Shown here: positions 1 through 29,847 of the stretch, piece after piece | Layout: each line of letters opens with the position of its first letter | How positions within the stretch are numbered: position 1 is the stretch's first letter | From: a virus | Direction: 5' to 3' (one strand) | DNA length: 29,910 nucleotides | IMG/VR virus record: IMGVR_UViG_3300034374_010241 | Span: 1 to 29,910 of that record | Notes under the pieces: generated by a model | Told to the model about the DNA's origin: nothing | The model's database searches: none | What the model saw: the letters and a program-made list of their open reading frames with translations, nothing else | Translations under genes and position numbers: made by a program

Positions 1-3000
1 ACCAAACTGTTTAGTGACCCTGGCTCACCAATCTCAGGCTTATCTGAAGTCCTTTCGTTCAGATCATTACCTTCTTTAACAATATCTTCTTCGGTAACCT
101 CTTGGTCAAATCTATTGATGTCATCAACACTAGCAAAAGTGTTCATTATTACGTCTACAAGATTTTGCTTATAGACGGCCTCCTTAACAGCATCTGCATC
201 GATCTCTCCGTAAGTACGCTCTAAATTCCCAGCAATCTCATCAACAAGTGATCTAAAAACAGCAACCATTTGTAGTTCGACATCAGACCCAAGAATCTCT
301 TCCTTAGCCTCAAAAGCCTTGTCGTGAAGTTCCGTTAGCTTTTTAATAGCCTCGGAAACATCTTTAGTTGAGTTTTCAGTAAGTAAGTCGGTAAGTGCCT
401 TTAGGTTTGGAATCTCGCGTTGATCTGCCTGATTAGTTATTGACTTAATCAAATCAAGCTTTTCAGAAGGACTCAATGAGTTTACTGGAAGTGCTTCTAC
501 TTGACGAGCAATTTCTTGGACAAATGGTTTTAAAGCATCGTCCAACTTTGTAAAGTCTTTTTCTAACTTTTCGGATACCTCAGAGATTTTTTCGAAGAAA
601 TCATTAAGCGCTCCGTCAGTATTTCCGCTAAGCGATTTAAGATTTTCTCTGAATTTTTCGATCAGCTCGTTAAACTGGTCTTCAAAGTCAATAATGTTGG
701 TGGTGGCTTTCTGAGACTTAAGTTGCTTTAGATACGCTTTAAATCCTTTAACCATTGTCTCAAGAGCACCCTGAGCAATATTCTTACGACTAATACTAGA
801 AACCTCTTCAGCAGTACGAGTCACAGAAATACCGTGACCTTTTAAGTCTTTGACCCCGGAAAAAGATACTGTTCCAGAAGAAAGTCTTTCCTGGAGCTCA
901 GCTAAGAATGCCTCAAGACCCTTACGCTTAGCCACCATCTGAGGAGACTTCTTATCGCCGATATTATCTAACTCTTGCTTAACAAGATCTACACTCTCTT
1001 GAGATATATCGTATGTCCTAACGGCCTCTTGGTAATTTCTAATAGCGGCATCAGTACGTAAATTTCTAATTGTCTCAACCTTTTCTGCCATCTTAGTAGA
1101 CGTCTCACCCTTTACATGAGTGATCACCGGTTGTCCATTCTCAAACCTTAGTTCATATTCGTTGTGTGGAGAAACCAGTCTAAGAGGTTTATCTTTTTTG
1201 TCACCTTGTTTAGATGGTGCAGGTGGCATCAACCTTAGATTGGTGTCTACAACATTACCGTCTTTGTCGGTAAGCTCAAACTCCGAAGTAGACATATGGA
1301 TGTTTGGCTTAGTAGGATCACTACTACCATAAACATCTATCTGGTGATTAGAGTCCCAAAAAGCTTTACCATCCTCGGTAAGATTACCGGTAGGTGATGT
1401 ACCATCTGCTTCAGCTATTGCTGCAGCAGCAACCTCGTAACGCTCATAACGAGTCCGTCTATTTTCCTTCCAACGCTTGTATAGATTGTTGTAAGTAGAA
1501 CGGTTCATGTTCTCAAAAAGCTCTTTGTTGTGTTCAAGCTTCTCGAGATCTTCTTGAAGTTTTTGTTCAGACTCAGCACTTTCAGCTGCAGCGATCTCTT
1601 GTTTCTTGTTGCGAATCTGAGCTGTAATATCCAAGTAAGGATCAAATATTACCTCTTCAGCAAACTCCTGCGGCAATGCCTGAGTCTCTTTGTTCTCAGA
1701 CTGAAGATCTGCCTTAGCCTCACTTGAGAACATGTACATGTCTGCAACAGACTGCATGGCCTTACGATCGCTGCGCATTTGACGACCTATATCACGAATC
1801 TCATCAAGAGATAGAATGTATTCAAGATCCGGATGAGCCGCTCTTACAGCTTTCAACTCTGTCTCGAGATCTTCTTCAAGCATCTCAAGAGTTTCATCAA
1901 ATCGTACATAAGACTTAATAAGCTGAGGTACAATCTGTTCCTTGATGTACTTTTTAAATGCTTCGGGATCTTCTTGAGCAAGTGCTTGTAGCTGAAGAGC
2001 TGTCATTTGCATGTGCAAATGTTGATCTGCATCCTTAAGAATGTTTGCAACTCTTAGTATTGGATTGCCGTCTTTGTCGTACTTTCTTTCGCCGGTCTTT
2101 TCATCACGCTCATAAATGTCACCGGACAAAGGTTTTAGATAAGCGTTGATCATGTTGTTACGAGACTCTTCAAGTAACTCGTAAACCTCCTTAGCACGCT
2201 TTATCTCACCACGCTTTTCAAGAGCACTTGGTCCAGCACCAAGTAGGGATCCAATGAATATTGACTTTTGACCCTCGTTGGTAACAACCATCTTTTCATA
2301 GTTACCAAGGAATCCAGTAAGCAAATCAAATGCTGTAGGATCTTGACCTTGAAGCATCTTAGCCTTTGCAGCCATTTCACCAGCAGTCTGCATACCTTCC
2401 TCCCAAAAGCCTTCAGAAAGAACACCTTTGGATACTGCAGAAGAAAACTTTCCAAGCCGGTCAAACGCCTTACGATACTTACTTGCAGAAAGAGCTTTCT
2501 CTGCTCTCATTGCATCACTAAGCTCGGCTCCTTTCAGTGCACGAGCACCAAAGAGCATGTTGTTCATGATAGTATTGGATACACCAAGAACAGCTAGGTT
2601 GTACCAATAGATAGCATCATCCATTCCTGTAAGAGCACCGCCACTTACGGCATCCTCAACATCTTGGGTAGTCCAAGGTTGTCCAGTATTAGGATTGATT
2701 TCGCCGTTTTGCTTTTTCTGCATCAAGGCATTGTACGCTTCTTCTTTAGCAAAGCTTGCTTCGGCAGACGCTTCAATAAACGTTTGATATGCAGTATAGC
2801 TATGAAGAGATGCTTTGTCTGCAACCTCCTCAGTCATCATCCAGCGATTCCTCTGAGTACCTCTGGTAGCCTCCATGGTCTTACGCCAGAAATCACTTTT
2901 ACGAGCAGCGTTGATCGTTGCGTAGTTTGCTTTTCTAAGACCTCGTGACAGTGCTTTAAAACCACCAAGTGCTTTAATAGCTCCGCCAGGAATTGCCATA

Positions 3001-3527
3001 CCGGCAAAGAAACCAGCACCCTGTGCCAGCTCATCACCTACAAACTCTGATGATGAGATCTGCTGAAGAAAGCTTTTTTGGTCGTAGTCACTACGATACA
3101 GTATTGGAAAGAAAGCTTCTTTTACGTGCTCTTCAGTGTCTCTAAGACCCTTGGAAATGTTTCCAAGATTTTGATCCTTACTGTAGGGATCGTTATTAAA
3201 GAACCTCCCAAGAACAAAATCCAATGGTGTTGCAACCATCTGACCAACCTCAAATAAGGCAGTAGTGGTCATCCTTGGAAGAAAGGATAGGTTCCTACGA
3301 AGGTTTCCTTGATAGTTTGCACCTATGTCCTGGATGTAATCCGGATCTGCGTATGTAGGTACATTTTTATTAGGAGCAAACCGTGTGTACTTCTCTACAT
3401 CAATTTGTAGAGGGGCACGAAGGTTAGCTTGAGGAACGTTGGTTAATCGGTTAAGTACATTTTCTGGACCGGGGTTCTTAGGATTCAATACCTGAGATAC
3501 ACCCGAAAGAATACTTTTTTTAGCCAT
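1..3527 (-). CDS. Large crAss-like cargo/ejection-type virion protein (partial, C-terminus off window)
   Basis: Reading back from ATG at 3527 the frame stays open to the left edge, giving at least 1175 residues; the protein is incomplete. The N-terminus reads MAKKSILSGVSQVLNP. Around residues 160-200 there is a Gly/Ala-rich weakly hydrophobic stretch (GAGFFAGMAIPGGAIKALGG). An Ala/Glu-rich helix (IEASAEASFAKEEAYNAL) follows near residue 250 and a YWYNLAVLGVSN segment near 305. This order recalls the large proteins after the muzzle gene of crAss-like phages, packaged in the virion and thought to enter the host with DNA. From about residue 400 it is highly charged and helical, with likely coiled coils. 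The start overlaps the upstream TAA by one base (TAATG), suggesting coupled translation. I saw no RNA polymerase DxDGD motif, but the missing C-terminus could hold more domains. Family assignment is from memory. Confidence 0.6.
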   Translation of the reverse strand, partial: MAKKSILSGVSQVLNPKNPGPENVLNRLTNVPQANLRAPLQIDVEKYTRFAPNKNVPTYADPDYIQDIGANYQGNLRRNLSFLPRMTTTALFEVGQMVATPLDFVLGRFFNNDPYSKDQNLGNISKGLRDTEEHVKEAFFPILYRSDYDQKSFLQQISSSEFVGDELAQGAGFFAGMAIPGGAIKALGGFKALSRGLRKANYATINAARKSDFWRKTMEATRGTQRNRWMMTEEVADKASLHSYTAYQTFIEASAEASFAKEEAYNALMQKKQNGEINPNTGQPWTTQDVEDAVSGGALTGMDDAIYWYNLAVLGVSNTIMNNMLFGARALKGAELSDAMRAEKALSASKYRKAFDRLGKFSSAVSKGVLSEGFWEEGMQTAGEMAAKAKMLQGQDPTAFDLLTGFLGNYEKMVVTNEGQKSIFIGSLLGAGPSALEKRGEIKRAKEVYELLEESRNNMINAYLKPLSGDIYERDEKTGERKYDKDGNPILRVANILKDADQHLHMQMTALQLQALAQEDPEAFKKYIKEQIVPQLIKSYVRFDETLEMLEEDLETELKAVRAAHPDLEYILSLDEIRDIGRQMRSDRKAMQSVADMYMFSSEAKADLQSENKETQALPQEFAEEVIFDPYLDITAQIRNKKQEIAAAESAESEQKLQEDLEKLEHNKELFENMNRSTYNNLYKRWKENRRTRYERYEVAAAAIAEADGTSPTGNLTEDGKAFWDSNHQIDVYGSSDPTKPNIHMSTSEFELTDKDGNVVDTNLRLMPPAPSKQGDKKDKPLRLVSPHNEYELRFENGQPVITHVKGETSTKMAEKVETIRNLRTDAAIRNYQEAVRTYDISQESVDLVKQELDNIGDKKSPQMVAKRKGLEAFLAELQERLSSGTVSFSGVKDLKGHGISVTRTAEEVSSISRKNIAQGALETMVKGFKAYLKQLKSQKATTNIIDFEDQFNELIEKFRENLKSLSGNTDGALNDFFEKISEVSEKLEKDFTKLDDALKPFVQEIARQVEALPVNSLSPSEKLDLIKSITNQADQREIPNLKALTDLLTENSTKDVSEAIKKLTELHDKAFEAKEEILGSDVELQMVAVFRSLVDEIAGNLERTYGEIDADAVKEAVYKQNLVDVIMNTFASVDDINRFDQEVTEEDIVKEGNDLNERTSDKPEIGEPGSLNSL

Positions 3528-6385
3528 TATAAGAAGATCTGGTTGTAAAGGTGTTCGCCAATTAACTCTTCAACTGCAGCCAGTTTTGCGGAAGGACTTT
3601 CTCCAACGACTCCAAAAGCACCACCGGCCATGAGTCGCCACTCCCAGACTCCATTAGAAGTCTGAAATGTTTTTAGTTTAATTGGATCTAATGCAGTTAA
3701 TCCCAGCAAACCTTCGCCAGTTTTAAGCTGAATGTCCATCTCGGTTTGTTTCTGAGGAACTCTTTCAAAAGCATCTCTTAAAACTCCAGAGTTTTGAATA
3801 AGGTCCTGACCAACTATTTGATTCATTGTAGAAGCAAGCATTGCTTGTTCAGGACTACCTTTTTGATTGTTAGAAGTCATCCAAAGAAGAGCATCTAAAC
3901 TCTCGCGATGCTGTTCTAAGTTAGGGAATACATCAAGACTTACATGAACAGGACTCATTGGTCCTTTTACTCGCTTATCTTCATTGTCGTTATAGTACTC
4001 AACGTCTCCGCTTAGTATAAGACTAGGTATTTGATTACCAGTTATCGGATCAGTAAATGAACCAAGATCCAATTTAGTGCTTGGTGTAAATGTAATAGGT
4101 TCATCAGGATCAATATTCGCAAGATTTGGATCTTCCCTAAGAACAACATCTAAGTTCTGACCAGATGATGTTTTAAGATACTGGGCGCCGGAACTATTAA
4201 AATGAGTCATAGCATCTTCAGTAAACCCATTCCAAAAATCTTTAAACTCATTACTACCAGGTGCATCCTGCATAGTAATTGTAAGCTTTTGAATAGATGC
4301 TTGATCAGTAACCATGTCTGCAACATCGGTATTTCTAGAAACCATACCTTGAAGCTGACTCATAGCTCTCATAAGATTGTTATATATAGTAGAACTACCT
4401 GGCTGAGTAAACCCAGAAACAAGTTGGTTAGTATATAAACCTTTTTCATCAGTAGCTTCAAGAAAACCTGTTGCTATTGATCCATAAGGAGCTGCTATAT
4501 CTTCAAAAAAAGTTCCAAGAGAGGATCGATAAACCTGAGAAAGCAAGGTTTGAGGTGCATCAATATTTAGAATTGAAAGCTTTTTATCTATTTCCTTAAG
4601 TTGAGCAATAGCGCTTGGTTTACCTTCAGAATAATCAGCAGTCATTAGTGAGGACTTTAAGAATTGCTCGAGTACCTCAAACTCTTTTTCAAGTTCTTGC
4701 TCGTTAATTCTAGCACCTTCTTTAAATATACCGTCAGTTACACTTCTAGGCGCACTACCGTCTTGATTTATTGCAGCGGTTGCTCCATTTTTTAACTGAC
4801 CTATAACATCATCTACAACACCCTCCCATATTCCTTGAGCATCTGAAAAAGAAGATACTGTAGGATTTCCTTGATTATAAACTGCCAGGTCACTAGAAAC
4901 AAGTTCATTTGTTTGCCAAGCAGCATTGTATTGTGCAACTTTTTGTTCTATAACACCATTAAGTTGATCCCTTCTGATCTTAGTATCATGAAATCCTTTA
5001 AGCATTTCTCGGTATTGCACAAAAGTCGGATCATCAATCAACTTTCTTGCAAGCACATCAGCTTCAAACTCAGTTCCAACGTACTTTGTTAAGGCTCTCC
5101 TGACCGCAATTTGTTGTTGATTTGGGGTTTCAAACTTTTGATCAAGAGCATTTGACACTTCCTGCAACATAATTCTCTGACCGCGTACATTTTCTGCGGG
5201 AGGTAGATTTACTCCTACATTAGATAACTTATCAAAAATTATATTAGTTGCTTGATTTACTTCGGCATCTATAGCTGAAACTGCATTGTTGGCATCAGCT
5301 AAATTGTTTTGCATTAATTGATAAGTGTTTACGTTAGATATTGCACCGTCAGTTACAGAAGTAACTATACCTTTAGGCATGGCACTCATGTCAACAAGAC
5401 TACCACCTATCCCAAGGCCAGCTGCAGATGTAGATCCGCCCTTTATATTCAGATCATAGCTTACACCAAACTTTGCTTTAATTGCTGCATCCATAGCAGA
5501 TCCAAGAGCAGTGTTTGTATCAAAGCCCAAGAACTTACCGTTCTCATCAGTAAGCATGAATGTATTAGCAATTCTACTCTCACCAGTTTCTTTATCGGTA
5601 ACTAACTCTATACCAGAGGCATTACCATAAAGCTCATTCATTTTCATGAAGTAGTTGCGAACCTCTGGGTCTCGTACGTAACTATTCGCAATTGAAAATC
5701 CTGCCTCAAGAAGTCTTGCCTTACGATCGCCATAGGCATAGGTAAGATTCTGAGCGTTTCCACCAATTAAATCTGATAGTGAAGCACCCATTTGTCCCGC
5801 ACTCATAAGACTATTTAGAACATCAGCCTCTTCCATAAGGTCCATGATCTCTTGTAGGTGATCACGGTGATCTACGTATTGTGCAGACGGTAAGCCTTGC
5901 ACAGAACCTTCTTCATTCTTAAAGGGTGTGGTAGATGCTGATTGTTGATAATCAGCTCTCTGCTTTTCAATCCAAGTACGCTCACCTGGTTCGTCAGCTT
6001 TAGAAAGAAGATCATCAAACTTTTTCATCTCATCATCATACTGACTACGACGATAATTGATACCAGCAATGTCATTCTTCTGAAGATTGGTATACCTTGA
6101 AACCAAATCAGTCATACGCTGGGAAACCCCGGGATCAGTAAACCCGGTTCTCATAAATTGCTCAGTATCTTCTTTAAGAGCTTTGTCCCAATCACTAGCA
6201 ATCTGCTGAGATCTTTCAAGATCCATTGGTGCCGGAGTCATATTAAGATTACTCAGCACACCTTTTAAACTCTCACGTTCTTGGTAAAGTTTACCGTAAA
6301 AACTAGGTACTACGGACATCTTTTCTAAAGACTCCGGAGTAAACTTTGCAAAAGTTCTTTGCTTACTAAATCTGTTAATAGCCAT
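3527..6385 (-). CDS. Large virion/cargo-type protein, 952 aa
   Basis: I do not recognise a catalytic domain. The N-terminal 200 residues are charged and helical (many E, K, Q, R), followed by a long Asn/Gln/Ser-rich body; there is no signal peptide and no clear membrane helix. Basic start MAINRFSKQRTF. The ATG lies two bases after the TAA of the 1231-residue gene and the stop overlaps the next ATG by one base, so it is the middle gene of a three-gene unit. Size and place after the muzzle-like gene match the internal/ejected (cargo) proteins of crAss-like and other podoviruses; that role is inferred from context. The codons are more AT-rich than in the capsid gene. Confidence 0.6.
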   Translation of the reverse strand: MAINRFSKQRTFAKFTPESLEKMSVVPSFYGKLYQERESLKGVLSNLNMTPAPMDLERSQQIASDWDKALKEDTEQFMRTGFTDPGVSQRMTDLVSRYTNLQKNDIAGINYRRSQYDDEMKKFDDLLSKADEPGERTWIEKQRADYQQSASTTPFKNEEGSVQGLPSAQYVDHRDHLQEIMDLMEEADVLNSLMSAGQMGASLSDLIGGNAQNLTYAYGDRKARLLEAGFSIANSYVRDPEVRNYFMKMNELYGNASGIELVTDKETGESRIANTFMLTDENGKFLGFDTNTALGSAMDAAIKAKFGVSYDLNIKGGSTSAAGLGIGGSLVDMSAMPKGIVTSVTDGAISNVNTYQLMQNNLADANNAVSAIDAEVNQATNIIFDKLSNVGVNLPPAENVRGQRIMLQEVSNALDQKFETPNQQQIAVRRALTKYVGTEFEADVLARKLIDDPTFVQYREMLKGFHDTKIRRDQLNGVIEQKVAQYNAAWQTNELVSSDLAVYNQGNPTVSSFSDAQGIWEGVVDDVIGQLKNGATAAINQDGSAPRSVTDGIFKEGARINEQELEKEFEVLEQFLKSSLMTADYSEGKPSAIAQLKEIDKKLSILNIDAPQTLLSQVYRSSLGTFFEDIAAPYGSIATGFLEATDEKGLYTNQLVSGFTQPGSSTIYNNLMRAMSQLQGMVSRNTDVADMVTDQASIQKLTITMQDAPGSNEFKDFWNGFTEDAMTHFNSSGAQYLKTSSGQNLDVVLREDPNLANIDPDEPITFTPSTKLDLGSFTDPITGNQIPSLILSGDVEYYNDNEDKRVKGPMSPVHVSLDVFPNLEQHRESLDALLWMTSNNQKGSPEQAMLASTMNQIVGQDLIQNSGVLRDAFERVPQKQTEMDIQLKTGEGLLGLTALDPIKLKTFQTSNGVWEWRLMAGGAFGVVGESPSAKLAAVEELIGEHLYNQIFL

Positions 6386-16398: not shown

Positions 16399-17696
16399 TA
16401 GATTTGATAATCTGCAAACTCTTGAATGAAGTATTTATTTAAGCCACTAGAGTAAACCATGCGGAAAAGATGATAACGACTAGTGTGAGCAGAAATATTT
16501 AAGTTAAGAGTGGTGTCTTCTGCACCACCCTGAACAAAAAACGATGGGGAACCTGTGGTAGATCCTATATTACAAGAAAACGTTGAGGCAGTTCCATTTT
16601 GGATAATAATCGTAAACTCATCACCATCCTCTACTACACTCTGATTAATCTCAATTGTAGTGTTTTCAGTTAACTGAGTACGAATTTTATAAGAACTAGA
16701 TGAAGGGTTCCAGCTAATAAGTCCTCCATTACTTTCAAGTTGTGAAATTCTTTTGTTTGTAGTCAAAGTACTTGTAGATGCATTGTAATTCAACAACCCA
16801 TCTGTAACATTCAAAGTACCTCCAGGATTAACAAACTCTCTTGCAAAATAATGCTGTGAACTAAACTCGCCTAAGTATGTAAGCCTAATTAAGTTTAGAC
16901 TGCTTGCAATATAAAATCCCTCAGTAACCGATATCGTACAAGATGTTCCTGTAATAGTAGGTTGTACCGTGTGCTGGTGCCAGATATATGCCGTAGCTCC
17001 TGCAATAGCTGAGCCTGGCTCAAGAGTTAAACTTGTTGTATTAGACGGAGCCGATGGATTGTAGTAAGTATTACCATGACCATTTGAAGTAAATTCAATA
17101 GTGGTTGAACTAAGGTTTACAGACCTTACTGCTGAAATATCCAGCTTATCGTTTAACAAACCATTGACCTGAGATTGGCTATACTTGTCAAGAGTGGGAA
17201 TATCTGCCTCTGTATGTTGATGACTTAATAGTGCAAATCTTGCATCTGCATCTGTTTTTTGGTAATACAGAGTATCATGATTATGACTACTTGCGGCTTT
17301 ACCAGCAAGAAGATCGTTAACCTCAGATTCTAGGTAATACCGATCATCGTGGTAGTGTGCAGGTGCTTTAAAAGGATAGAAGTTAAAACTCAATCCAGCA
17401 TAAGTAGAGTCAAATGGACCACCAGCCCCGGGATACGTGGCATTGGATGTAAGTAGATTTTCATCGTCATCTATGTTAGCATTACTGCCTGCTTCAGTTG
17501 TTGAGCACCAAACGTAATGCTGATTGGTATCTCCAACATAAACAATCATTCCGTTATACCAACCATAGTGCTCAAAATTATTGACTGCTGTGGTTAGTTC
17601 ATTAACGGTATCCCAAGTAAGACGATCGTCCAAAGGTTCCTGAGAACCAACTTTACGACCTGCAACAACAGCTAAAGAGTTTGTGTACTTTTTCAT
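16398..17696 (-). CDS. Tail fibre with repeated HxH metal-binding motifs
   Basis: 432 residues. The N-terminal 110 residues would be the virion-attachment part. From residue 113 the chain has HYH-DDRYYLESEVNDLL, HNH-DTLYYQKTDADARF and HQH-TEADI at residues 114-116, 138-140 and 159-161, and another HQH at 240-242. Such evenly spaced HxH sites line the trimer axis of fibres such as T4 gp37, where they bind iron. The remainder is Ser/Thr/Asn-rich beta structure, typical of a trimeric shaft and tip that touches the receptor. It is joined by TAATG overlaps to both neighbours. Fibre genes evolve fast, so the tip cannot be matched to a receptor. Confidence 0.75.
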   Translation of the reverse strand: MKKYTNSLAVVAGRKVGSQEPLDDRLTWDTVNELTTAVNNFEHYGWYNGMIVYVGDTNQHYVWCSTTEAGSNANIDDDENLLTSNATYPGAGGPFDSTYAGLSFNFYPFKAPAHYHDDRYYLESEVNDLLAGKAASSHNHDTLYYQKTDADARFALLSHQHTEADIPTLDKYSQSQVNGLLNDKLDISAVRSVNLSSTTIEFTSNGHGNTYYNPSAPSNTTSLTLEPGSAIAGATAYIWHQHTVQPTITGTSCTISVTEGFYIASSLNLIRLTYLGEFSSQHYFAREFVNPGGTLNVTDGLLNYNASTSTLTTNKRISQLESNGGLISWNPSSSSYKIRTQLTENTTIEINQSVVEDGDEFTIIIQNGTASTFSCNIGSTTGSPSFFVQGGAEDTTLNLNISAHTSRYHLFRMVYSSGLNKYFIQEFADYQI

Positions 17697-18319
17697 TAGA
17701 ACATTGAGTATGAGTATGTACCAGGGGTAATGATACGGTTAATCAAGTAGATATCCCAGGTAGTTATGCTTTCAAGCCCAGATATCGTCATAGAAACATT
17801 TGTAAATGTCTGAGTAATAGCAGTAAGCTCAGTTCCAGTAACATCTTTAACACCGGAAATAAGACCCGCAGCTACCATGAACACGTGACATGCAATCTGA
17901 CCATTTGCCGTATGAGCTATCTCAATTCCACCAGGTTCTACAGCTTTTGCTCGACCACCTGCAATCTGCGAGTAGTTATTTGCATTTGTAGTAACTATAT
18001 CAGTAACCAGGTCTGATGCAGTTGTAGGAATTGCTCTACTACTAAGACTATAATATCCAGCTCTATACATAGTTGCGTCATCTTCTATTGTTTGGACATC
18101 AAACTCATAAATGTCATCAATAGTAAACTGTCGAGAACAAGTTCTGAGAGGAATGTCCAACGCGGTATTACACAAATCATTTTGGGTCACGTTGTACTTT
18201 AACGCAAAGTCGCACATCTCAGCTTCATCGGATCGCTTTACCAGCCCGATGTTTGCTGCGTCTATTACTGCAAAGCCAGCATCTAACGCAGATTCTAAAA
18301 TGTCTTTACGCTCAGCCAT
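17696..18319 (-). CDS. Hypothetical virion-associated protein, 207 aa
   Basis: Not recognised. A helical N-terminus (MAERKDILESALDAGFAVIDAANIG) is followed by a region with four Cys (MCDFALKYN, DLCNTALD, RTCSRQF and later ACHVF) and a Thr/Ser/Ile-rich beta C-terminal half. It is first gene of the unit with the tail fibre, to which it is joined by a TAATG overlap, so it may be a fibre adaptor or attachment protein; that is inference. Its ATG lies four bases beyond a perfect TATATTTG -7 box, so the mRNA probably begins at or next to the start codon. Confidence 0.6.
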   Translation of the reverse strand: MAERKDILESALDAGFAVIDAANIGLVKRSDEAEMCDFALKYNVTQNDLCNTALDIPLRTCSRQFTIDDIYEFDVQTIEDDATMYRAGYYSLSSRAIPTTASDLVTDIVTTNANNYSQIAGGRAKAVEPGGIEIAHTANGQIACHVFMVAAGLISGVKDVTGTELTAITQTFTNVSMTISGLESITTWDIYLINRIITPGTYSYSMF

Positions 18320-18323
18320 ACGG

Positions 18324-18331
18324 CAAATATA
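18324..18331 (-). promoter_or_regulatory. Bacteroidota -7 box TATATTTG, near-leaderless, for the fibre unit
   Basis: A perfect match to TAnnTTTG on the minus strand, four bases (CCGT) before the ATG at 18319. With the usual few bases between box and transcript start, the message would have almost no leader. I see no convincing -33 TTG. Confidence 0.6.
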
Positions 18332-18363
18332 GCTAAAATGTAGAAGGAATCGCTGAGGATCAT

Positions 18364-18371
18364 TATATTAG
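18364..18371 (+). promoter_or_regulatory. Probable -7 box TATATTAG for the basic-protein cassette
   Basis: One mismatch to TAnnTTTG, four bases (CTAG) before the ATG at 18376. The geometry is the same as that of the divergent promoter on the other strand of this 56-base intergenic region. No clear -33 element. Confidence 0.45.
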
Positions 18372-18375
18372 CTAG

Positions 18376-18525
18376 ATGAAAAAGTCTCGCTCTAAGAAGA
18401 AGTCAGGAACTAAGAAAGACGCTTGCTATCAAAAAGTTAAGCGTACTTACAAAGTATTCCCTTCGGCTTATGCTAGCGGAGCTATTGCTAAGTGTAGAAA
18501 GAAACGTGCCGGTAAGAAAAAGTAA
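18376..18525 (+). CDS. Very small Lys/Arg-rich protein, 49 aa
   Basis: A 49-residue frame starting MKKSRSKKKSGTKKDACYQK and ending CRKKRAGKKK. Nearly half of the residues are Lys or Arg. The core DACYQKVKRTYKVFPSAYASGAIAKC, with two Cys 23 residues apart, matches a short motif I recall from many marine phages and large viruses (K-CY-KVK-RYKV-PSAYASGA--KCRK). The stop overlaps the ATG of the next gene by one base (TAATG). Likely a DNA- or RNA-binding peptide; whether it is packaged, condenses DNA or acts in the host cell is unknown. Confidence 0.75.
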   Translation: MKKSRSKKKSGTKKDACYQKVKRTYKVFPSAYASGAIAKCRKKRAGKKK

Positions 18526-18791
18526 TGGCTGTTAGGAAGACAAAGAAAGGTGCTGCTCTTAAACGTTGGTTCAAGGAAAAGTGGACAGACGAAAAAGGTA
18601 ATCCTTGTGGATCATCTAAAAACAAGGGTACCAAGAAATGCAGACCTTCTAAAAGAGTTTCTTCCAAAACGCCACGAACCTGGGGATCCATGTCAGCTTC
18701 TCAAAAAAGAAAAGCTGTTGCTGAAAAGAAACGTGTAGGTATGGGTCGTAGAACCAGCGCGATCAGAAAACGAAAAAAGTCTAAAAAGTAA
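18525..18791 (+). CDS. Basic protein resembling DUF5872-type phage proteins, 88 aa
   Basis: 88 residues, about a third Lys/Arg. After a basic start (MAVRKTKKGAALKRW) comes the core FKEKWTDEKGNPCGSSKNKGTKKCRPSKRVSSKTPRTWGSMS, then KRKAVAEKKRVGMGRRTSAIRKRKKSKK. The W-D--G-PCG----K--KCRP pattern followed by a 'K---V--K' helix is what I remember of DUF5872, a short domain found in marine phages and giant viruses; no search was run. The two Cys lie 11 residues apart. The start codon overlaps the stop of the 49-residue gene, so the two are translated together. Confidence 0.75.
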   Translation: MAVRKTKKGAALKRWFKEKWTDEKGNPCGSSKNKGTKKCRPSKRVSSKTPRTWGSMSASQKRKAVAEKKRVGMGRRTSAIRKRKKSKK

Positions 18792-18811
18792 ACCCAAAAA
18801 CCCAAAGTGTC

Positions 18812-19012
18812 ATGCCCGGAATGATGAAAAAGTCCATGTCTTACAAGAAAGGTGGAGCTATGAAAAAGAAAGCTGCTGCCAAGAAAAAGAAGGTTGCTTC
18901 TAAAATGAAGCCTAAAGCCAAAGGTGCAGGTGCTGCAGCTATGATGATGAAGAAAGGCGGTAAAATGCCAGCTGCTGTTCTGAAAATGATGAAGGCTAAG
19001 AAAAAGAAGTAA
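18812..19012 (+). CDS. Lysine/methionine/alanine-rich low-complexity protein, 66 aa
   Basis: 66 residues built from very few amino-acid types: I count 24 Lys and 12 Met, the rest mostly Ala and Gly. There are no acidic residues, Cys or Trp. It contains SYKKGGAMKKK and MMMKKGGKM; the SYKKGG motif recurs at the start of the 190-residue protein further on. The Ala/Lys pattern is like the C-terminal tails of histone H1 and bacterial H1-like proteins, which condense DNA. Acid-free composition argues for nucleic-acid binding, but the role is inferred. The start follows a 20-base gap and the stop overlaps the next ATG (TAATG). Confidence 0.7.
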   Translation: MPGMMKKSMSYKKGGAMKKKAAAKKKKVASKMKPKAKGAGAAAMMMKKGGKMPAAVLKMMKAKKKK

Positions 19013-19278
19013 TGCCCGTTAAGAAAGACTCACGTTTAAAAAGGGCTGGTGTCTCCGGGTACAACAAACCTAAGAGAACCCCAAGTCACCCTACCAAGTC
19101 GCATATCGTTGTGGCTAAGGAAGGTAGCAAGATCAAAACAATTCGCTTTGGTCAGCAAGGTAAAAAGGGTGACAAAAAACCTACCAAGCGTGCTAAATCT
19201 TTTAAAGCTCGTCATGCTAAAAATATCAAGAAAGGTAAGATGAGCGCTGCTTACTGGGCTAATCGCGTAAAATGGTAA
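19012..19278 (+). CDS. Basic conserved protein resembling DUF6321, 88 aa
   Basis: 88 residues: MPVKKDSRLKRAGVSGYNKPKRTP, then HPTKSHIVVAKEGSKIKTIRFGQQG, and finally KSFKARHAKNIKKGKMSAAYWANRVKW. I recall almost the same sequence order (GV-G-NKPKRTP-HP-KSH-V-AKEG--IKTIRFG-QG ... FKARH--NI-KGKMSAAYWA--VKW) from marine myo- and podoviruses, where it is listed as a domain of unknown function (DUF6321 as I remember). It has a clear folded core, unlike the low-complexity neighbour, so a specific function is likely. It starts one base inside the previous stop and ends three bases before the next gene. Confidence 0.75.
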   Translation: MPVKKDSRLKRAGVSGYNKPKRTPSHPTKSHIVVAKEGSKIKTIRFGQQGKKGDKKPTKRAKSFKARHAKNIKKGKMSAAYWANRVKW

Positions 19279-19281
19279 ATC

Positions 19282-19854
19282 ATGTCTAAGAAAAAAGTAA
19301 AATCATACAAGAAAGGTGGATTCTCCGATCCCGTTGGTCGAATGAAGAAATTCAAAACTAATGGTGGCGGTTTAGTTGATGCACTAAAAACTGGACTTAG
19401 TAACATAACCAAAGGAGCAAGCTCAGTATTGCCTATGGCATCGCCAGGCTTATATGCTTTAGATAAGGTTATCAATAGACCTCAAAGTAGGGTTAGTGAA
19501 ACAACACCTCCTGTGTATAACATGAATAGGACAAAAGAGCCTATGCCTGGAACTCGTCCGCAAAAAAATGATAGACAACTGGAGCGAGAGCAGTTCGGAA
19601 CAAATAACCCTACTGATCAGCAACTAAGGGATTACTTTGATAGCGATGAGTTTAAATCAAAGCTACCAAAAGCACCAGTAGAATCCGATAACACTAGACG
19701 GTTTGTATCTCCAGGTAAGCCTTCATCAGGTACACCAGGTGTTTACATGAATCCTCGACTTGAGGAAGGAGTAAATATTCCTAAAAAGTCTATTAAGATT
19801 ACTACCAAAAAGAAAGGCGGTAAGCTTAAGAAAGCTAAGAAGCGAAAGTACTGA
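19282..19854 (+). CDS. Basic-ended hypothetical protein with KKGG motifs, 190 aa
   Basis: 190 residues. The N-terminus MSKKKVKSYKKGGFSDPVGRM and C-terminus KKSIKITTKKKGGKLKKAKKRKY are very basic, while the middle is polar and probably disordered (Pro, Asn, Arg, Glu; GTRPQKNDRQLEREQFGT). The segment VDALKTGLSNITKGASSVLPMASPGLYALDKVI is the only amphipathic/hydrophobic part. KGG-type motifs are common in virion-associated proteins of Bacteroidota and marine phages. Last gene of the plus-strand cassette, followed by a strong terminator after 15 bases. Function unknown; basic ends suggest contact with DNA or a capsid surface. Confidence 0.65.
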   Translation: MSKKKVKSYKKGGFSDPVGRMKKFKTNGGGLVDALKTGLSNITKGASSVLPMASPGLYALDKVINRPQSRVSETTPPVYNMNRTKEPMPGTRPQKNDRQLEREQFGTNNPTDQQLRDYFDSDEFKSKLPKAPVESDNTRRFVSPGKPSSGTPGVYMNPRLEEGVNIPKKSIKITTKKKGGKLKKAKKRKY

Positions 19855-19868
19855 TCGTTCTAAATATC

Positions 19869-19899
19869 AAACGCCGGCTTACTCAGTCGGCGTTTTTTT
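19869..19899 (+). terminator. Rho-independent terminator of the basic-protein cassette
   Basis: A stem of AAACGCCGGC with GTCGGCGTTT (one G-U pair on the plus-strand RNA) and a seven-base loop, followed by a run of T to 19899. It lies 15 bases after the last plus-strand gene. The stem also forms in minus-strand RNA, so it may slow transcription coming from the fibre/spike unit, although the T-run there is poor. Confidence 0.85.
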
Positions 19900-20007
19900 A
19901 TGCTTGTGGTTTAGCCACAGCATGTAAGTCAGCAGTATGAACAGGAGCGTTCTACAAGAATGCTCGTGACTTATGAAATCAAAAACAAGATCTTCAAAAT
20001 GCTCCAT
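19879..20007 (-). CDS. Candidate 42-aa single-span membrane protein
   Basis: A 42-codon frame from ATG at 20007 to TAA at 19879-19881. It reads MEHFEDLVFDFISHEHSC, then a hydrophobic run RTLLFILLTYMLWL, then NHKHKKTPTE. The acidic start, one short membrane helix and basic tail fit a small inner-membrane protein such as a holin-like, spanin-like or exclusion peptide; no family is recognised. The support for expression is that a perfect -7 box TAAATTTG lies exactly four bases before the ATG, the same geometry as at 18319 and 18376. The box overlaps the TAA of the SGNH gene and the stop codon falls in the loop of the convergent terminator. Confidence 0.5.
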   Translation of the reverse strand: MEHFEDLVFDFISHEHSCRTLLFILLTYMLWLNHKHKKTPTE

Positions 20008-20011
20008 AGTG

Positions 20012-20019
20012 CAAATTTA
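20012..20019 (-). promoter_or_regulatory. Bacteroidota -7 box TAAATTTG before the 42-aa ORF
   Basis: Exact TAnnTTTG on the minus strand, overlapping the stop codon of the SGNH gene and four bases (CACT) upstream of the ATG at 20007. No -33 element was identified, and the overlap with a stop codon means chance cannot be ruled out. Confidence 0.45.
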
Positions 20020-22758
20020 CGAAGGAATCGTAAAGCTACTTGCACCGATAACTTGATTTAGTCTTTCGAATAAAAGCTCATGTCCTTTAGGAGACCTGTG
20101 TAGTCTTCTACCCATAACCCTTTCGTTAACCCCAGAATTACCCGTACCCTTAAATACAGGATCTTCTATAAGATCGTTAACCAATAAGGTAGTATCAGCC
20201 AAACCACTTGTAGGCTCTTTATAATTATCAGAACCATAGATAAGTCTACCGCCAGTAGTTTCAACTGTATTTTTTAAATCACTGATTTGATAAAGATCAA
20301 CAAGGTGTACTTTATCAGCTACCAAAGCCGGTAGCTGCACAGTATCTGTTATTACCTTACGAACAATCTTTAATCTAGTAAGACCAGATTCGTTTGTATT
20401 TAGATTTTCTGCCCAAAAGTTAGATAACGAAGAAGCACCCACAACCTTGCCCACATTAGTAATATTCCCAGAAGCAATTTCATTCATATAGATAACGTTA
20501 CCTTGTTGATAGACGCTAAAGCAAATACCTCGACCAGGAGTAAGATTGAATGGTTGTGATGTATTAGTCAACTGAACCTCAATAGTGTATCCGTCATAGG
20601 TATTACTACCATGCTCAAAATAATTATAGTTTGTTCCGGTGTTGTAGGAAGAACCTTCAAACTGAGCAATATATGATCGAGTACCTATGGCTTCAACTTC
20701 TTCATTTCCGTTAGAAGAAAAGTTTGTAGCTCCGGTAGATGGTTCTGTAAAAAACCTAGTGCTGCTATTTCTAGAATCAAGATTTATTTGAATCTGTGTT
20801 ACAACTTCTACACCTGAAACTACAGAAGTAGAATAGTCAATCACTTTATAAAAGCCATTAACATTTCTCCAGCTTTCTTTAGCAGGATCATGAACAGCCT
20901 CACTTGAACTGTCAAAACCCTTTAGTTTAATCCAAACATCATTCTGATCTACAACACTTGCAGGAGGCCAGTTCAATTCTGGTAACGGTAATCCAGAGTC
21001 AGCACCCAACTGAATTTGAGTAAGACCTCGGCTAGGGAACATATTATCTATCCCTGTTACAACTGGATCTGGATTAGTTATTCCTGAAATAAGTGGACCT
21101 TCAATCTTAGTTGGTGATGAAGGAACTCCGGTAATAAAGTGATTAGCGGCTCCATCCAAAGCATCAAACTTAGTATCTGTTCCGGCCATTGTCTTCCCAA
21201 CCAAAGAAGCTCTATCGATTTCTTCAAACTGATCTCCTGAAACAATACACTTTAGAAACACAGTTGAACTTTCTGGAAATTCTATAAAACCTTCAAACAA
21301 ATCTGAATCCCCAGGATCAATCAAGGAATCCAAAGTTCTAATCCAAGAGTATGCTGATCTTGTAGTACCTGTTACTAAATCGGTATCCGTTATAAAATCA
21401 ATTCTATAAACCTCTCCAGGTGTACCGCCATCCAAAGTTATATTGTCTCTACCGTCACCTTCAATCTTAATCCAACGATCTCCAGACAAAGTAACATCTA
21501 CAACTTGAGGAACATCACTTATAGCAATTCGATTAGTATCGTCTCCTGAATAAGCCGGAGTAAGTGTCCAGTTACTAACCCCTCCATTGGTTTGTATACT
21601 GTAAGTATCTCCATCAAGAATAACTTCAAAAGTAGCTAAACCTGTAGTAGTGTTAACGGTACTACCTCCAGTTACAGCGTCATATTGCACAGCATTAGTA
21701 GAACCAGTAGTTACTTCTAAACGAGTAGCAAAATTAGTTTTAGCTGTAAATGATTCAGGAGATAGAGTATATGCTTCAGATGTTCCTTGAATAGGTGGAC
21801 GTTGGTCTAAGCAAACCCTTGATGATAGACCATCGTATTTATCGTCAACTGATGGTGGTGTACAAAATACCATAGGATAATTTTTACGACCATCATTATT
21901 ACGCTTGGTCACCATATCCTGTATTCTCTGAGCCATAGTCAGTTGACGCAATGGTGTTTGCACATCAGTAGCATCATTCACCCCTGCCTGCATCACCATT
22001 AAATTCCAAGGAAGAGTATACAGTCCAGACCTTGATGCAAACCACTGGTCGGTAGCAAGCTTAGAACCACCAAAACCTTTGTTCACGAGACGTATGCTCT
22101 CAGGAGTAGGTTTACTTCTTAAGGCATTTACTAAACGAAAAGATGCCAACTCATCTCCAAAATAATCCGGAAATGGGCTGGTGGATTCCTTGCGGTTACC
22201 AGAGTAATTATAACCCATGTCCTGTGGTCTCCAGTTGCCTACAAGACTCCAAGAAATAGAGTCTCCGCAGTAAAGAAGTCTTTTGGTTGCATTAAAATTA
22301 AAGTCAGCAGTGAACTCAATTCCGTTAATGTGCATTCCAATATCCGGATCTGTCTGACCTGTTTGAGGATATGGTGTAAACCTTAAGGATACTCCGGCGC
22401 CAGGGCCCAATATAAATCCGTTAAAATTCAATGTACTTGAACCACCATCACTGACAGCTAGTGAAAACTCATCTTGGTTGGACAGTCCGATCCAATCGCC
22501 AATAGCGTTCTGAGCAATAACTCCGGATACTCTACCCTTGGCATTTGACGTAATTGTAATAGAATTTACAAGTATTGCTCTACCTACATCTATGTCAAGT
22601 GTGCTTGATACGACATCACCATAAACAGGCGGAGTGCCTCCGTCATTAGTCAGTGCAGTGCCGTCCCCCTCTAAAGCAACGCTGAGGTTTACGGGTCTGC
22701 CCTCAAGCTGAATCTTTTCTTTGATCGATTGTGTAGATACGTCTAGTAATCTTGCCAT
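20017..22758 (-). CDS. SGNH-hydrolase fibre/spike with a very large internal insertion
   Basis: 913 residues. Residues 1-155 are beta-rich and probably anchor the protein to the virion. SGNH/GDSL blocks follow: CGDSIS with Ser167 (block I), NKGFGGS with Gly228-Gly231 (block II) and QAGVNDA with Asn261 (block III). About 490 Ser/Thr/Asn-rich residues (roughly 320-810), carbohydrate-module-like, interrupt the fold. The fold resumes with KVHLVDLYQ and a block V-like RRLHRSPKGHELLFERL at the extreme C-terminus (His887). The usual D-x-x-H Asp position appears to be Arg884. Likely role: removing O-acetyl or other ester groups from surface glycans during adsorption, as in other SGNH-bearing phage fibres. 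It ends a unit of small structural genes. Enzyme family is fairly sure, substrate unknown. Confidence 0.75.
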   Translation of the reverse strand: MARLLDVSTQSIKEKIQLEGRPVNLSVALEGDGTALTNDGGTPPVYGDVVSSTLDIDVGRAILVNSITITSNAKGRVSGVIAQNAIGDWIGLSNQDEFSLAVSDGGSSTLNFNGFILGPGAGVSLRFTPYPQTGQTDPDIGMHINGIEFTADFNFNATKRLLYCGDSISWSLVGNWRPQDMGYNYSGNRKESTSPFPDYFGDELASFRLVNALRSKPTPESIRLVNKGFGGSKLATDQWFASRSGLYTLPWNLMVMQAGVNDATDVQTPLRQLTMAQRIQDMVTKRNNDGRKNYPMVFCTPPSVDDKYDGLSSRVCLDQRPPIQGTSEAYTLSPESFTAKTNFATRLEVTTGSTNAVQYDAVTGGSTVNTTTGLATFEVILDGDTYSIQTNGGVSNWTLTPAYSGDDTNRIAISDVPQVVDVTLSGDRWIKIEGDGRDNITLDGGTPGEVYRIDFITDTDLVTGTTRSAYSWIRTLDSLIDPGDSDLFEGFIEFPESSTVFLKCIVSGDQFEEIDRASLVGKTMAGTDTKFDALDGAANHFITGVPSSPTKIEGPLISGITNPDPVVTGIDNMFPSRGLTQIQLGADSGLPLPELNWPPASVVDQNDVWIKLKGFDSSSEAVHDPAKESWRNVNGFYKVIDYSTSVVSGVEVVTQIQINLDSRNSSTRFFTEPSTGATNFSSNGNEEVEAIGTRSYIAQFEGSSYNTGTNYNYFEHGSNTYDGYTIEVQLTNTSQPFNLTPGRGICFSVYQQGNVIYMNEIASGNITNVGKVVGASSLSNFWAENLNTNESGLTRLKIVRKVITDTVQLPALVADKVHLVDLYQISDLKNTVETTGGRLIYGSDNYKEPTSGLADTTLLVNDLIEDPVFKGTGNSGVNERVMGRRLHRSPKGHELLFERLNQVIGASSFTIPS

Positions 22759-24129: not shown

Positions 24130-25356
24130 TTAGTCGTTAGCCTGGATGTCTGTCAACAGATCAGCGGCTGTGTTTCCAGAACCAGCATCCCGAGGGATGA
24201 ATACTGTGATCTCAGCTTCGCTGTTTACAACAGATCCTGGATACTGTGCGGTATTCTTACGCAGAGTAAAGCTGAACTGATCGTACTGCTTAGTTGAAAC
24301 AGTCTCCAACCGGCGAGTACGCATCCGACGATACTCAGTCCACATCAGACCAGAGAACTGAGCAAGGCTCAACTCTTCGATAACTGCAACGTGAGGACCG
24401 TAACCGTTTCCGATGTCAGCCTGCTGAGTATCAACAGTAACCAAACTAGTGGCTTCCTCACCATCTACTGTCATAGTAGTATCGAAATCGATTGGGCGGA
24501 ACGGATGGTTAAAGTCGATCTTAGACTGAATGTCTCCGATCAGGTAGATAGTATCTGCTTCAGCATCGGTAACATTAGAAGAGATGTCTACCTGAGCAGC
24601 ATCAGATCCTTCGTATGGACGATCAAGAGTGATGGTTGAAGAACCAGCAGTCATAGCAACGTTGTAAGGAACACCGTCAATGATAGCTACAACAGTAAGA
24701 GTAGCAGTTGCAGTCTCCAGAGTTGTTCCGTTAGTTTCATACACTGTAGCGGTTTTAGAACCGGTTACGAATGTGATCTTATCGGCAGCAGCCCAGTTAC
24801 CTACAAATCCAGTAGCTCCCATGTAAGCAGTAGCACTGTCTACTTTACGCTTGTCGTTGGTTTTGTTCCACTGAGTAACCAAACCTGCACCTACAGCGGC
24901 AGCAGTAGTTGTGGAAACAGTATGATCAGCCCACACGTCAAAGAAACGGCCATCAGATACAGCTCCTACGTTGCGGTAGCGAACGTTCATCATAACAACT
25001 TCACCAGCAGTAAAGGTCATACCTCCGAGATCAAGCTCTTGGATGTGTGCCTTAGGCTGAGCGAAAGCAGTTTTATCAGTTGGGTACTTAACAACGTCAG
25101 CTGCTGAGAATACTGGAGTCAAGATATCAGAAGAAAGGCTGGCACCTACTTCTTGATTATCTGTAACCAGACGGAGGGCAATGCCTTCTCCATCAGAATT
25201 TCCTGAAGAACTGTCAAAACCGCTACCGTCTTTGTTCAAGAGGGTAATGTCACCGGCAGTTCCAGCCGCATCGGCATCGACTACGGTTACTGATTGGTCT
25301 TCATACTGTGTCCCTACAAGGACGAAGCGCGAGGGTGCGCCTTCAAGATAACTCAT
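24130..25356 (-). CDS. Major structural protein candidate (tail-tube, collar or capsid-decoration type), 408 aa
   Basis: 408 residues opening MSYLEGAPSRFVLVGTQ. Rich in Ala, Thr, Val, Asp and Gly, with alternating beta segments and a likely Ig-like part (KITFVTGSKTATVYETNGTTLETATATLTVVAI). The C-terminus has EYRRMRTRRLETVSTKQYDQFSFTLRKN. No family is certain. The gene uses more C-ending codons than the large cargo genes, as the capsid gene does. It is followed at once by a strong terminator, consistent with an abundant virion protein. It could be a decoration, collar or tube protein; position after a ring-type gene does not settle this. Confidence 0.6.
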   Translation of the reverse strand: MSYLEGAPSRFVLVGTQYEDQSVTVVDADAAGTAGDITLLNKDGSGFDSSSGNSDGEGIALRLVTDNQEVGASLSSDILTPVFSAADVVKYPTDKTAFAQPKAHIQELDLGGMTFTAGEVVMMNVRYRNVGAVSDGRFFDVWADHTVSTTTAAAVGAGLVTQWNKTNDKRKVDSATAYMGATGFVGNWAAADKITFVTGSKTATVYETNGTTLETATATLTVVAIIDGVPYNVAMTAGSSTITLDRPYEGSDAAQVDISSNVTDAEADTIYLIGDIQSKIDFNHPFRPIDFDTTMTVDGEEATSLVTVDTQQADIGNGYGPHVAVIEELSLAQFSGLMWTEYRRMRTRRLETVSTKQYDQFSFTLRKNTAQYPGSVVNSEAEITVFIPRDAGSGNTAADLLTDIQAND

Positions 25357-27122: not shown

Positions 27123-28628
27123 TTACGCAGACAGGATGTTAGGAATGAGACTCATAGTACGCTCTGGATCGCGAAGGATCACACCGAACTGACAGAACAA
27201 GGTAACAGTCCAGGCATCCTTGCGGTTTGCCATCTTGTTATAGTTTGTTCCAGAGTCAGCAGAGAATGGTGATCTCAGACCTTCTTCGATACCACGAATG
27301 TACTCAGCTCCCTTGACGTATGCCTTCTGCATGTTAGGAAGACCTTGTACAGTTCCGATATCAAAGATGTCGTAACGATAAGACTCGGCCTTACCACCGT
27401 CAGGGTGATTGATCTTGTGACGTACCTGATCACTGTAGTTGTGGTCAACCTCAACGATCACACGGATGCTGTTGGCGAACAACCACTCAGTGAACTGGAA
27501 TCCACCCTGATATGCCTGAGAGTGCAGAGGGCTGCTTGTTGGACGGTAAGAAGCACCAGCGTTAGTGTCGCGAACGACGCTGCTACCAGTTTGAGTCCAA
27601 GCTGTAGCCTCAGCCTTGGCAGCTTCGTGGAATTGCTTAGCACCACGCTCACCAGTACGGAGCATGAATACACGCTCGTCCATTCCGAGCTTACCTTCAG
27701 ACAGAGTCAAGAGCGCATTCTCGAGAGTGCTCAGCTGGAAGTCAGTGTAGTAGTACACGTTAGAAACCTCCATCATCTCACGAAGACCAGCTCCGATCAA
27801 GATCTCATTCTGAGAAGGACCAGTCATGTAAGAACGACCTTCCGCATCGCGGTTGCTGCGTCCATAGTACATGGCCTTAACTTTTTCCTCCATGAACTCA
27901 TACTCAAGAATGAAGTCTTCGTACTCAATCCAAGAGACGATAGCCTTGTCATTCCGAGGATCAGGGAAAGCAGTAGCCAGCTTCCGAGACTTCATGTTAC
28001 CAGGAATGGAGTTCTCCTTACGAACAGTTGTGAAACCGTTGCGGAATTCGATAGGAGTTACCCGGCGGATACCAGTACCACGAATGGACATTGTGCTCTC
28101 TACTGGAGAGAATTCAATGCTGAACAACTTACCAGCAGTCAGTTCAGAACCTGGGATTCCATCAGGGCTAGACAGTGCAGATACACAAGTGTAGATCCAC
28201 TCTTCAGCGGCACCACGACGAACAGACTCGATGTAGATCGGATAGATTTCGTTCTTCTCACCAACGATTACGTGACCTTCGTCGAACCACTTCTCGGGGA
28301 AAGTCAGCTCAAAAGGCATGTGGTTTGCACCAACACGGGTGGTTGAACTAGTGATCGTAGAACCTTTCCAGCTACCACTGACCAGTTCGATGTTCCGGTT
28401 GTGATCACCCTGGAGCTTCCAGAAATAATCATCATCGGTTTCGAACGTCTCAGATGGCAAACCATCGAGGTACGTTTCAATGTTGCTGCCGTACTTGTTG
28501 GACAGCATCTTGTTCATCACTTTACCAGCGTACTGAGGGGCAACCTCATACAGCGAGTGGAAGTGGTTGTTACGAACGAGGCCTGCCATTGCTTTGGCCT
28601 CCGTAACCTGAAAGGGACTAACTTGCAT
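27123..28628 (-). CDS. Major capsid protein, crAss-like
   Basis: 501 residues, close to the usual size of crAss-like major capsid proteins (HK97 fold). From memory of the family: VKAMYYGRSNRDAEG, GAGLREMMEVSNVYYY, LSTLENALLTLSEGKLGMDERVFMLRTGERGAKQFHEA, YRYDIFDIGTVQGLPNMQKAYVKGAEYIRGIEEGLRSPF and a C-terminus ending FGVILRDPERTMSLIP, all in the expected order. It follows a scaffold-like gene and has the most C-rich, host-optimised looking codons in the window (AAC, ATC, GTC), as expected for the most abundant virion protein. The upstream leader has TCTAAAAC, also seen before the 408-residue gene. Confidence 0.82.
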   Translation of the reverse strand: MQVSPFQVTEAKAMAGLVRNNHFHSLYEVAPQYAGKVMNKMLSNKYGSNIETYLDGLPSETFETDDDYFWKLQGDHNRNIELVSGSWKGSTITSSTTRVGANHMPFELTFPEKWFDEGHVIVGEKNEIYPIYIESVRRGAAEEWIYTCVSALSSPDGIPGSELTAGKLFSIEFSPVESTMSIRGTGIRRVTPIEFRNGFTTVRKENSIPGNMKSRKLATAFPDPRNDKAIVSWIEYEDFILEYEFMEEKVKAMYYGRSNRDAEGRSYMTGPSQNEILIGAGLREMMEVSNVYYYTDFQLSTLENALLTLSEGKLGMDERVFMLRTGERGAKQFHEAAKAEATAWTQTGSSVVRDTNAGASYRPTSSPLHSQAYQGGFQFTEWLFANSIRVIVEVDHNYSDQVRHKINHPDGGKAESYRYDIFDIGTVQGLPNMQKAYVKGAEYIRGIEEGLRSPFSADSGTNYNKMANRKDAWTVTLFCQFGVILRDPERTMSLIPNILSA

Positions 28629-29839: not shown

Positions 29840-29847
29840 CAAAAATA
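29840..29847 (-). promoter_or_regulatory. -7 box TATTTTTG inside the terminator tail
   Basis: Exact TAnnTTTG on the minus strand made from the last stem bases and T-run of the terminator. Distance to ATG 29818 is 21 bases of A/T-rich leader, as usual for Bacteroidota genes lacking a Shine-Dalgarno site. Confidence 0.5.

Follow-up and report, generated by a model that had tools for sequence, protein, structure and literature searches.

A cassette of five small, basic, plus-strand genes lies within the minus-strand virion region of a crAss-like phage, and on balance we lean, at a little better than an even chance, toward its products being accessory proteins that are taken into the prohead and there bind or condense DNA. 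The window analyzed is a 29,910-nucleotide stretch of virus DNA (IMG/VR record IMGVR_UViG_3300034374_010241, positions 1–29,910), taken at its full length. Judged by its major head protein, a match to phrog_11589 (E 4e-100) with 41% identity to the counterpart in Cellulophaga phage phi14:2, the phage is a member of the crAss-like group (Crassvirales). The cassette (18376–19854) comprises five closely spaced ORFs with ATG starts, called P1 to P5 here, that encode 49, 88, 66, 88, and 190 aa. An earlier note made from the sequence had listed these genes with their sizes, coordinates, and two TAATG overlaps as well as a strong terminator, all of which are borne out by an ORF check and by inspection of the region. 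The features are as follows.

18320..18375, no strand assigned, 56-bp divergent spacer between P1 (plus strand) and a 207-aa gene (minus strand)
18324-18331, minus strand, TATATTTG box in the 56-bp divergent spacer, ahead of the divergent 207-aa gene
18376..18525, plus strand, P1, 49 aa, pI 10.7, N-terminal half of DUF5872
18525..18791, plus strand, P2, 88 aa, pI 11.8, C-terminal half of DUF5872, TAATG overlap with P1
18812..19012, plus strand, P3, 66 aa, Lys/Ala-rich, fast-evolving
19012..19278, plus strand, P4, 88 aa, pI 11.5, phrog_7595, TAATG overlap with P3
19282..19854, plus strand, P5, 190 aa, basic ends, strain-variable add-on
19869..19895, plus strand, intrinsic terminator closing the cassette, 11-bp stem and T run

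The five proteins are as basic as had been described (pI 10.3–11.8, with P3 at 11.1 and P5 at 10.3), P5 being the least so with a net charge per residue of 0.13, and among the non-cassette window proteins that were checked only two lie above pI 7 (7.8 and 9.7). The statement that the other genes are on the minus strand holds for the large genes, among them a 1,174-codon open frame that spans bases 1–3526 of that strand. A 333-aa plus-strand ORF with a TTG start (27345–28346), antisense to the major head protein gene, is probably a frame artefact. P3 has no family match in Pfam and PHROG profile searches, and P5 has no family or phage match in Pfam, PHROG, and phage searches. We also note a short YKKGG-like motif common to P3, P5, and several small ORFs of the basic islands described below (loci L083, L085, and L111). 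Rfam and tRNA scans of the window gave no matches.

L081 (the same contig as L164) is a sister strain with an MCP 99% identical to that of the window, and it carries P1 to P4 at the same place and in the same orientation. Codon changes between the two are mainly synonymous in three of these genes (synonymous to amino-acid-changing 2:0 in P1, 4:1 in P2, and 18:1 in P4), so P1, P2, and P4 are coding and are under purifying selection. P3 has 9 synonymous and 17 amino-acid-changing codons and is 74% identical. P5 is missing from L081 between P4 and the terminator and is therefore not a fixed part of the cassette, and an extra 54-aa ORF lies between P2 and P3 in that strain. The terminator sequence is retained, and the 56-bp divergent spacer has two mismatches. 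A 42-aa minus-strand ORF that overlaps the terminator region (19879–20007) is probably a real gene, since it is 100% conserved in L081 with two synonymous changes.

The 913-aa gene that adjoins the cassette (20017–22758, minus strand; 2290–4983, minus strand, in L081) is only 54% identical between the sister strains, so the cassette site borders a variable gene, and this divergence suggests a receptor-binding (tail-spike) swap there. The genes at 20017–22758 and 24130–25356 (both minus strand) have a paralogous stretch of about 77 aa, with 48% identity in the sister strains. The cassette was not found in L166, a relative with 78% MCP identity whose contig is a fragment. The closely related isolate phi14:2 has no match to P1, P2, or P4, and the function of these genes is therefore not essential to crassviruses.

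The earlier note had also given the cassette its own promoter-like box, and here the searches went against it: a sigma-70 scan of 17500–20500 returned 0 sites, and the single match in 17700–18400 to TAnnTTTG, the Bacteroidetes-type −7 pattern, is on the minus strand ahead of the divergent gene. A plus-strand Bacteroidetes −7 box before P1 was rejected because the pattern search found none, and a cassette promoter is thus far presumptive. TAnnTTTG boxes stand directly upstream of three minus-strand gene starts (18324–18331, 20012–20019, and 29840–29847), the total across the window not being above chance. In other genomes both neighbors usually run in the same direction as the module gene (57/80 P2 loci and 60/80 P4 loci), so the reverse orientation here is best explained if a mobile block was inserted together with a terminator of its own. 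The opposite strand had been read as a sign of expression at a different time from the virion genes; elsewhere the genes are mostly co-directional with their neighbors and in isolates they belong to late modules, which does not favor that reading.

P1 and P2 together supply the two halves of DUF5872 (PF19197, curated cut-off 27.5 bits). P2 is above the cut-off (E 1e-14, 55.5 bits, profile positions 48–112) and P1 is sub-threshold (18.1 bits, positions 7–40). P1 also matches phrog_727 (E 8e-12) and carries the motif KDACYxKVKxxYKVFPSAYASGAIAKCRK. The two occur as one fused ORF of about 114 aa at 79 other viral loci, including L055 and relatives, and because a single DUF5872 protein is found in those viruses, P1 and P2 would be expected to act as one functional unit. 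P1 is also close to P2 in most of 80 further P2 loci, with an identical 3-base spacing in 37 of them, and P2 relatives occur at at least 577 loci in IMG/VR. An AF2 model of the fused P1 and P2 was set aside as too poor (pTM 0.32). The resemblance to DUF5872 and DUF6321 that had been proposed for two members of the cassette therefore stands, for DUF5872, with P2 and reaches P1 only below the cut-off; for DUF6321 it fails, as no window protein matches that family and none of the five does so at E up to 1 (PF19846).

P4 matches phrog_7595 over its full length (E 8e-35, profile positions 3–96 of 96), a family that like DUF5872 is known and uncharacterised. Its relatives are present in 51 isolate records, mostly of roseophages and cyanophages, with up to 83% identity, and at at least 599 loci in IMG/VR. 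The C-terminal Trp is invariant in the P4 alignment, and distant members have either both residues of a Cys pair (7 sequences) or neither of them (76), never just one, a count that kinship inflates. AF2 predicts a beta hairpin and two helices (mean pLDDT 81.5), with disagreement among the five models. PDB matches of P2 and P4 by sequence or fold (RNase, ribosomal S17, and SH2) were judged to be chance hits; no PDB entry did better than an E of 0.97 in Foldseek.

The P4 HMM also matches residues 189–261 of ICP1 gp125 (hmmsearch E 8.8e-9 with a search space of one million), and in the control none of the shuffled copies was reported. ICP1 gp125 matches the XkdF protease family (Peptidase_S78_2) and is predicted to mature the procapsid (PMC7567579, PMC9040626), so P4 has its domain in common with the C-terminus of a predicted prohead protease, and this domain is a candidate for targeting proteins to the prohead. 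Among viral models, Foldseek of P4 also finds proteins that bear the names XkdF and ChaB, and a search with ICP1 gp125 for further P4-tailed proteases gave only one more relative.

Other small basic ORFs occur at 0.605/kb within 1 kb of P2 vs. 0.054 elsewhere on that strand, an 11-fold enrichment (p 5e-17, 27 independent loci). The commonest companion is a DUF6321-type protein, which matches in 57/80 P2 loci (three examples are Pfam-confirmed), and there are further recurrent island modules, labeled E, F, and G. P4-type genes match in 42 of the 79 loci with fused DUF5872, P2-type genes match in 32 of the 80 loci found via a Cys-bearing P4 relative, and neighboring module pairs are on the same strand in every case (409/409). 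The order P1-P2-P3-P4 recurs in L155 and L156, a P3-like ORF included. The earlier note had asked whether the five genes occur together in relatives: P1-P2 is a conserved unit, P4 is often and P3 sometimes present with it, and P5 is dispensable. The broader idea, a basic-protein module found again in other phages, has strong support from co-occurrence, gene fusion, mobility, and head-gene linkage.

Among 21 carrier contigs checked, which may be fragments, 16 have no crAss-type head protein, three have a distant match, and two a weak one. A search of 84,980 species genomes gave only eight P2 relatives, all on MAG contigs, and one of 14 control genomes gave none, and a cellular origin is accordingly disfavored. 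Since the carriers are diverse and such relatives are few, the module set, as far as these matches tell, is essentially viral and mobile between unrelated phages. For the crassviruses it shows that a mobile cassette of late type has been acquired, here lying inverted among the virion genes. In the incomplete part of the literature that was searched we found no description of the split DUF5872, the recurrent island, the relationship of P4 to a protease tail, or the inverted crassvirus insertion.

In unrelated isolates the modules lie in the head or late gene region. P1/P2 are located between scaffold and coat in P-SCSP2 and before the adjoining terminase in CRP-7. S-TIP37, Eistla, and S-SBP1 have a DUF6321 relative between scaffold and coat, and MEP402 has one a short way ahead of terminase. 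P4 relatives immediately precede scaffold and coat in S-H1, lie close to the coat gene in S-CBS2 and CRP-810, and close the late arm in ICBM2. Some isolates have P4 beside lysis genes or where the late cluster ends. In a PHROG census, terminase, portal, head, and adaptor families dominate the P4 neighborhoods, and the P2 neighborhoods give GroEL, endolysin, and ribonucleotide reductase plus terminase and portal. Of 112 ORFs sampled no farther than 5 kb from P2 at 27 independent loci (L081–L160), 9 match the GroEL family. The window cassette is likewise inside a virion region, but inverted.

In the literature searched, none of these small proteins is directly reported from a virion, and the ICBM2 and P-SCSP1u/P-SCSP2 papers have no relevant passage on their detection by mass spectrometry. 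A larger protein, T4-GC119 of T4-like cyanophages (S-RIM8 gp114 and S-SM2 ORF109; 495–708 aa), is encoded near the terminase genes and combines DUF6321 with the P1 motif (E about 1e-16). It has no significant HMM match to P2 or P4; a P2-like module inside it that looked similar by eye was dropped, as the HMM gives it no support. In the S-SM2 GenBank record T4-GC119 bears the note "similar to Synechococcus phage S-SM1 protein," which is also found on gp3, gp4, gp14, gp15, gp18–21, gp23, and gp53 and on T4-GC15, T4-GC190, and T4-GC1038, and is absent from terminases and replication genes in the stretches of the record that were read. The S-SM1 study names gp4, gp14, gp21, gp53, T4-GC15, and T4-GC190 among the proteins detected in its virion (PMC3037559). 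We infer that the note marks orthologs of virion-detected proteins, and because it is so read, T4-GC119 was probably detected in cyanophage virions.

Taken into the prohead, the cassette proteins would be small, strongly cationic accessory core proteins that are made late, enter during assembly, and stay around the packaged genome, where they may neutralise or condense the DNA and might be ejected with it. Entry into the prohead is suggested by synteny and domain sharing, and DNA binding by charge and composition; of the readings, a putative DNA-condensing role has the best support, and no support was found for host-chromatin remodelling, which had also been proposed earlier. P4 would be a separate module that attaches either to DNA or to part of the prohead (coat, scaffold, or portal) and helps with incorporation, as suggested by the presence of its domain at the end of the predicted prohead protease. 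In this phage the mobile set would have been inserted in reverse, with its own terminator, beside the variable and probable tail-spike gene.

Much of the same evidence could be read as pointing to head-assembly or packaging accessory factors, whose modules would have scaffold, coat, portal, or terminase as binding partners and assist assembly or the packaging motor, then leave the mature particle or stay as minor cement, their charge serving protein contacts and not genome condensation. The modules between scaffold and coat or beside terminase in isolates, the P4 domain on a prohead protease, and GroEL near P2 in many loci all agree with this; yet the very high Lys/Arg content, the low-complexity tails, and the several parallel basic proteins per island fit nucleic-acid binding better, and T4-GC119 probably stays in the virion, so that we regard it as unlikely, if a serious contender. 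Nucleic-acid binding could also be exercised in the cell, by late proteins that are never packaged and that cover the replicating DNA or RNA of the phage, compact the nucleoid of the host (the host-chromatin reading is a version of this), or shield phage DNA from nucleases. Protein composition suits such a role, relatives are not always beside head genes, and P4 is found by lysis genes or at the late-cluster end in some isolates; repeated head-gene linkage, the domain shared with the prohead protease, and the probable virion detection of T4-GC119 run the other way and make it less probable still.

A moron-like or selfish insertion of little benefit to this phage, kept temporarily, would account for the reverse insertion with its own terminator beside a variable gene, for the presence or absence of P5 and the 54-aa ORF between strains, and for the fast change of P3. 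It is very improbable in view of the mainly synonymous change in P1, P2, and P4 and of how strongly P2 and P4 are conserved from one unrelated phage to another.

The DNA of tailed phages is usually pictured as neutralised by small cations. We put forward, tentatively and at somewhat short of an even chance, that a mobile kit of small basic modules common to many tailed phages builds an intracapsid protein-DNA core, a "phage chromatin." The kit would consist of the DUF5872 halves, DUF6321, phrog_7595/DUF5754-like proteins, and others, swapped, fused, and split between unrelated phages, with one of them also serving as the tail domain of a prohead protease. If the proteins are packaged, many phages would, like adenoviruses, bring along cationic core proteins of their own, and a testable role would open up for several families of unknown function.

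Among known families, P2 is a member of DUF5872 and P1 covers its other half, natural fusions spanning both, but here the domain is split into two overlapping genes and DUF6321, the commonest neighbor elsewhere, is absent. Two P4 relatives (L129 and L155) match DUF5754 (PF19058) below its cut-off, and excerpts of a giant-virus genome paper list DUF5872 and DUF5754 proteins by name only (PMC12085832). P4, a phrog_7595 protein, differs from ICP1 gp125 in being free-standing at 88 aa, far more basic, and without a protease domain, and T4-GC119, which has the P1 motif and DUF6321 in common with the modules, differs as one protein of 495–708 aa. Adenovirus VII, V, and mu (adenovirus core, PMC4246237) and the internal head proteins of phage T4 are small basic proteins packaged with the genome. 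The likeness of the cassette proteins, as putative core proteins, to both groups is one of proposed role only and not of known sequence kinship. Crassvirus virions are known to carry protein cargo in head and tail, namely gp45, gp46, gp47, gp49, and gp50 of crAss001 (PMC10172136), but that cargo is of 60–277 kDa and broadly conserved in crassviruses, whereas the cassette proteins are of 5–21 kDa and lineage-specific.
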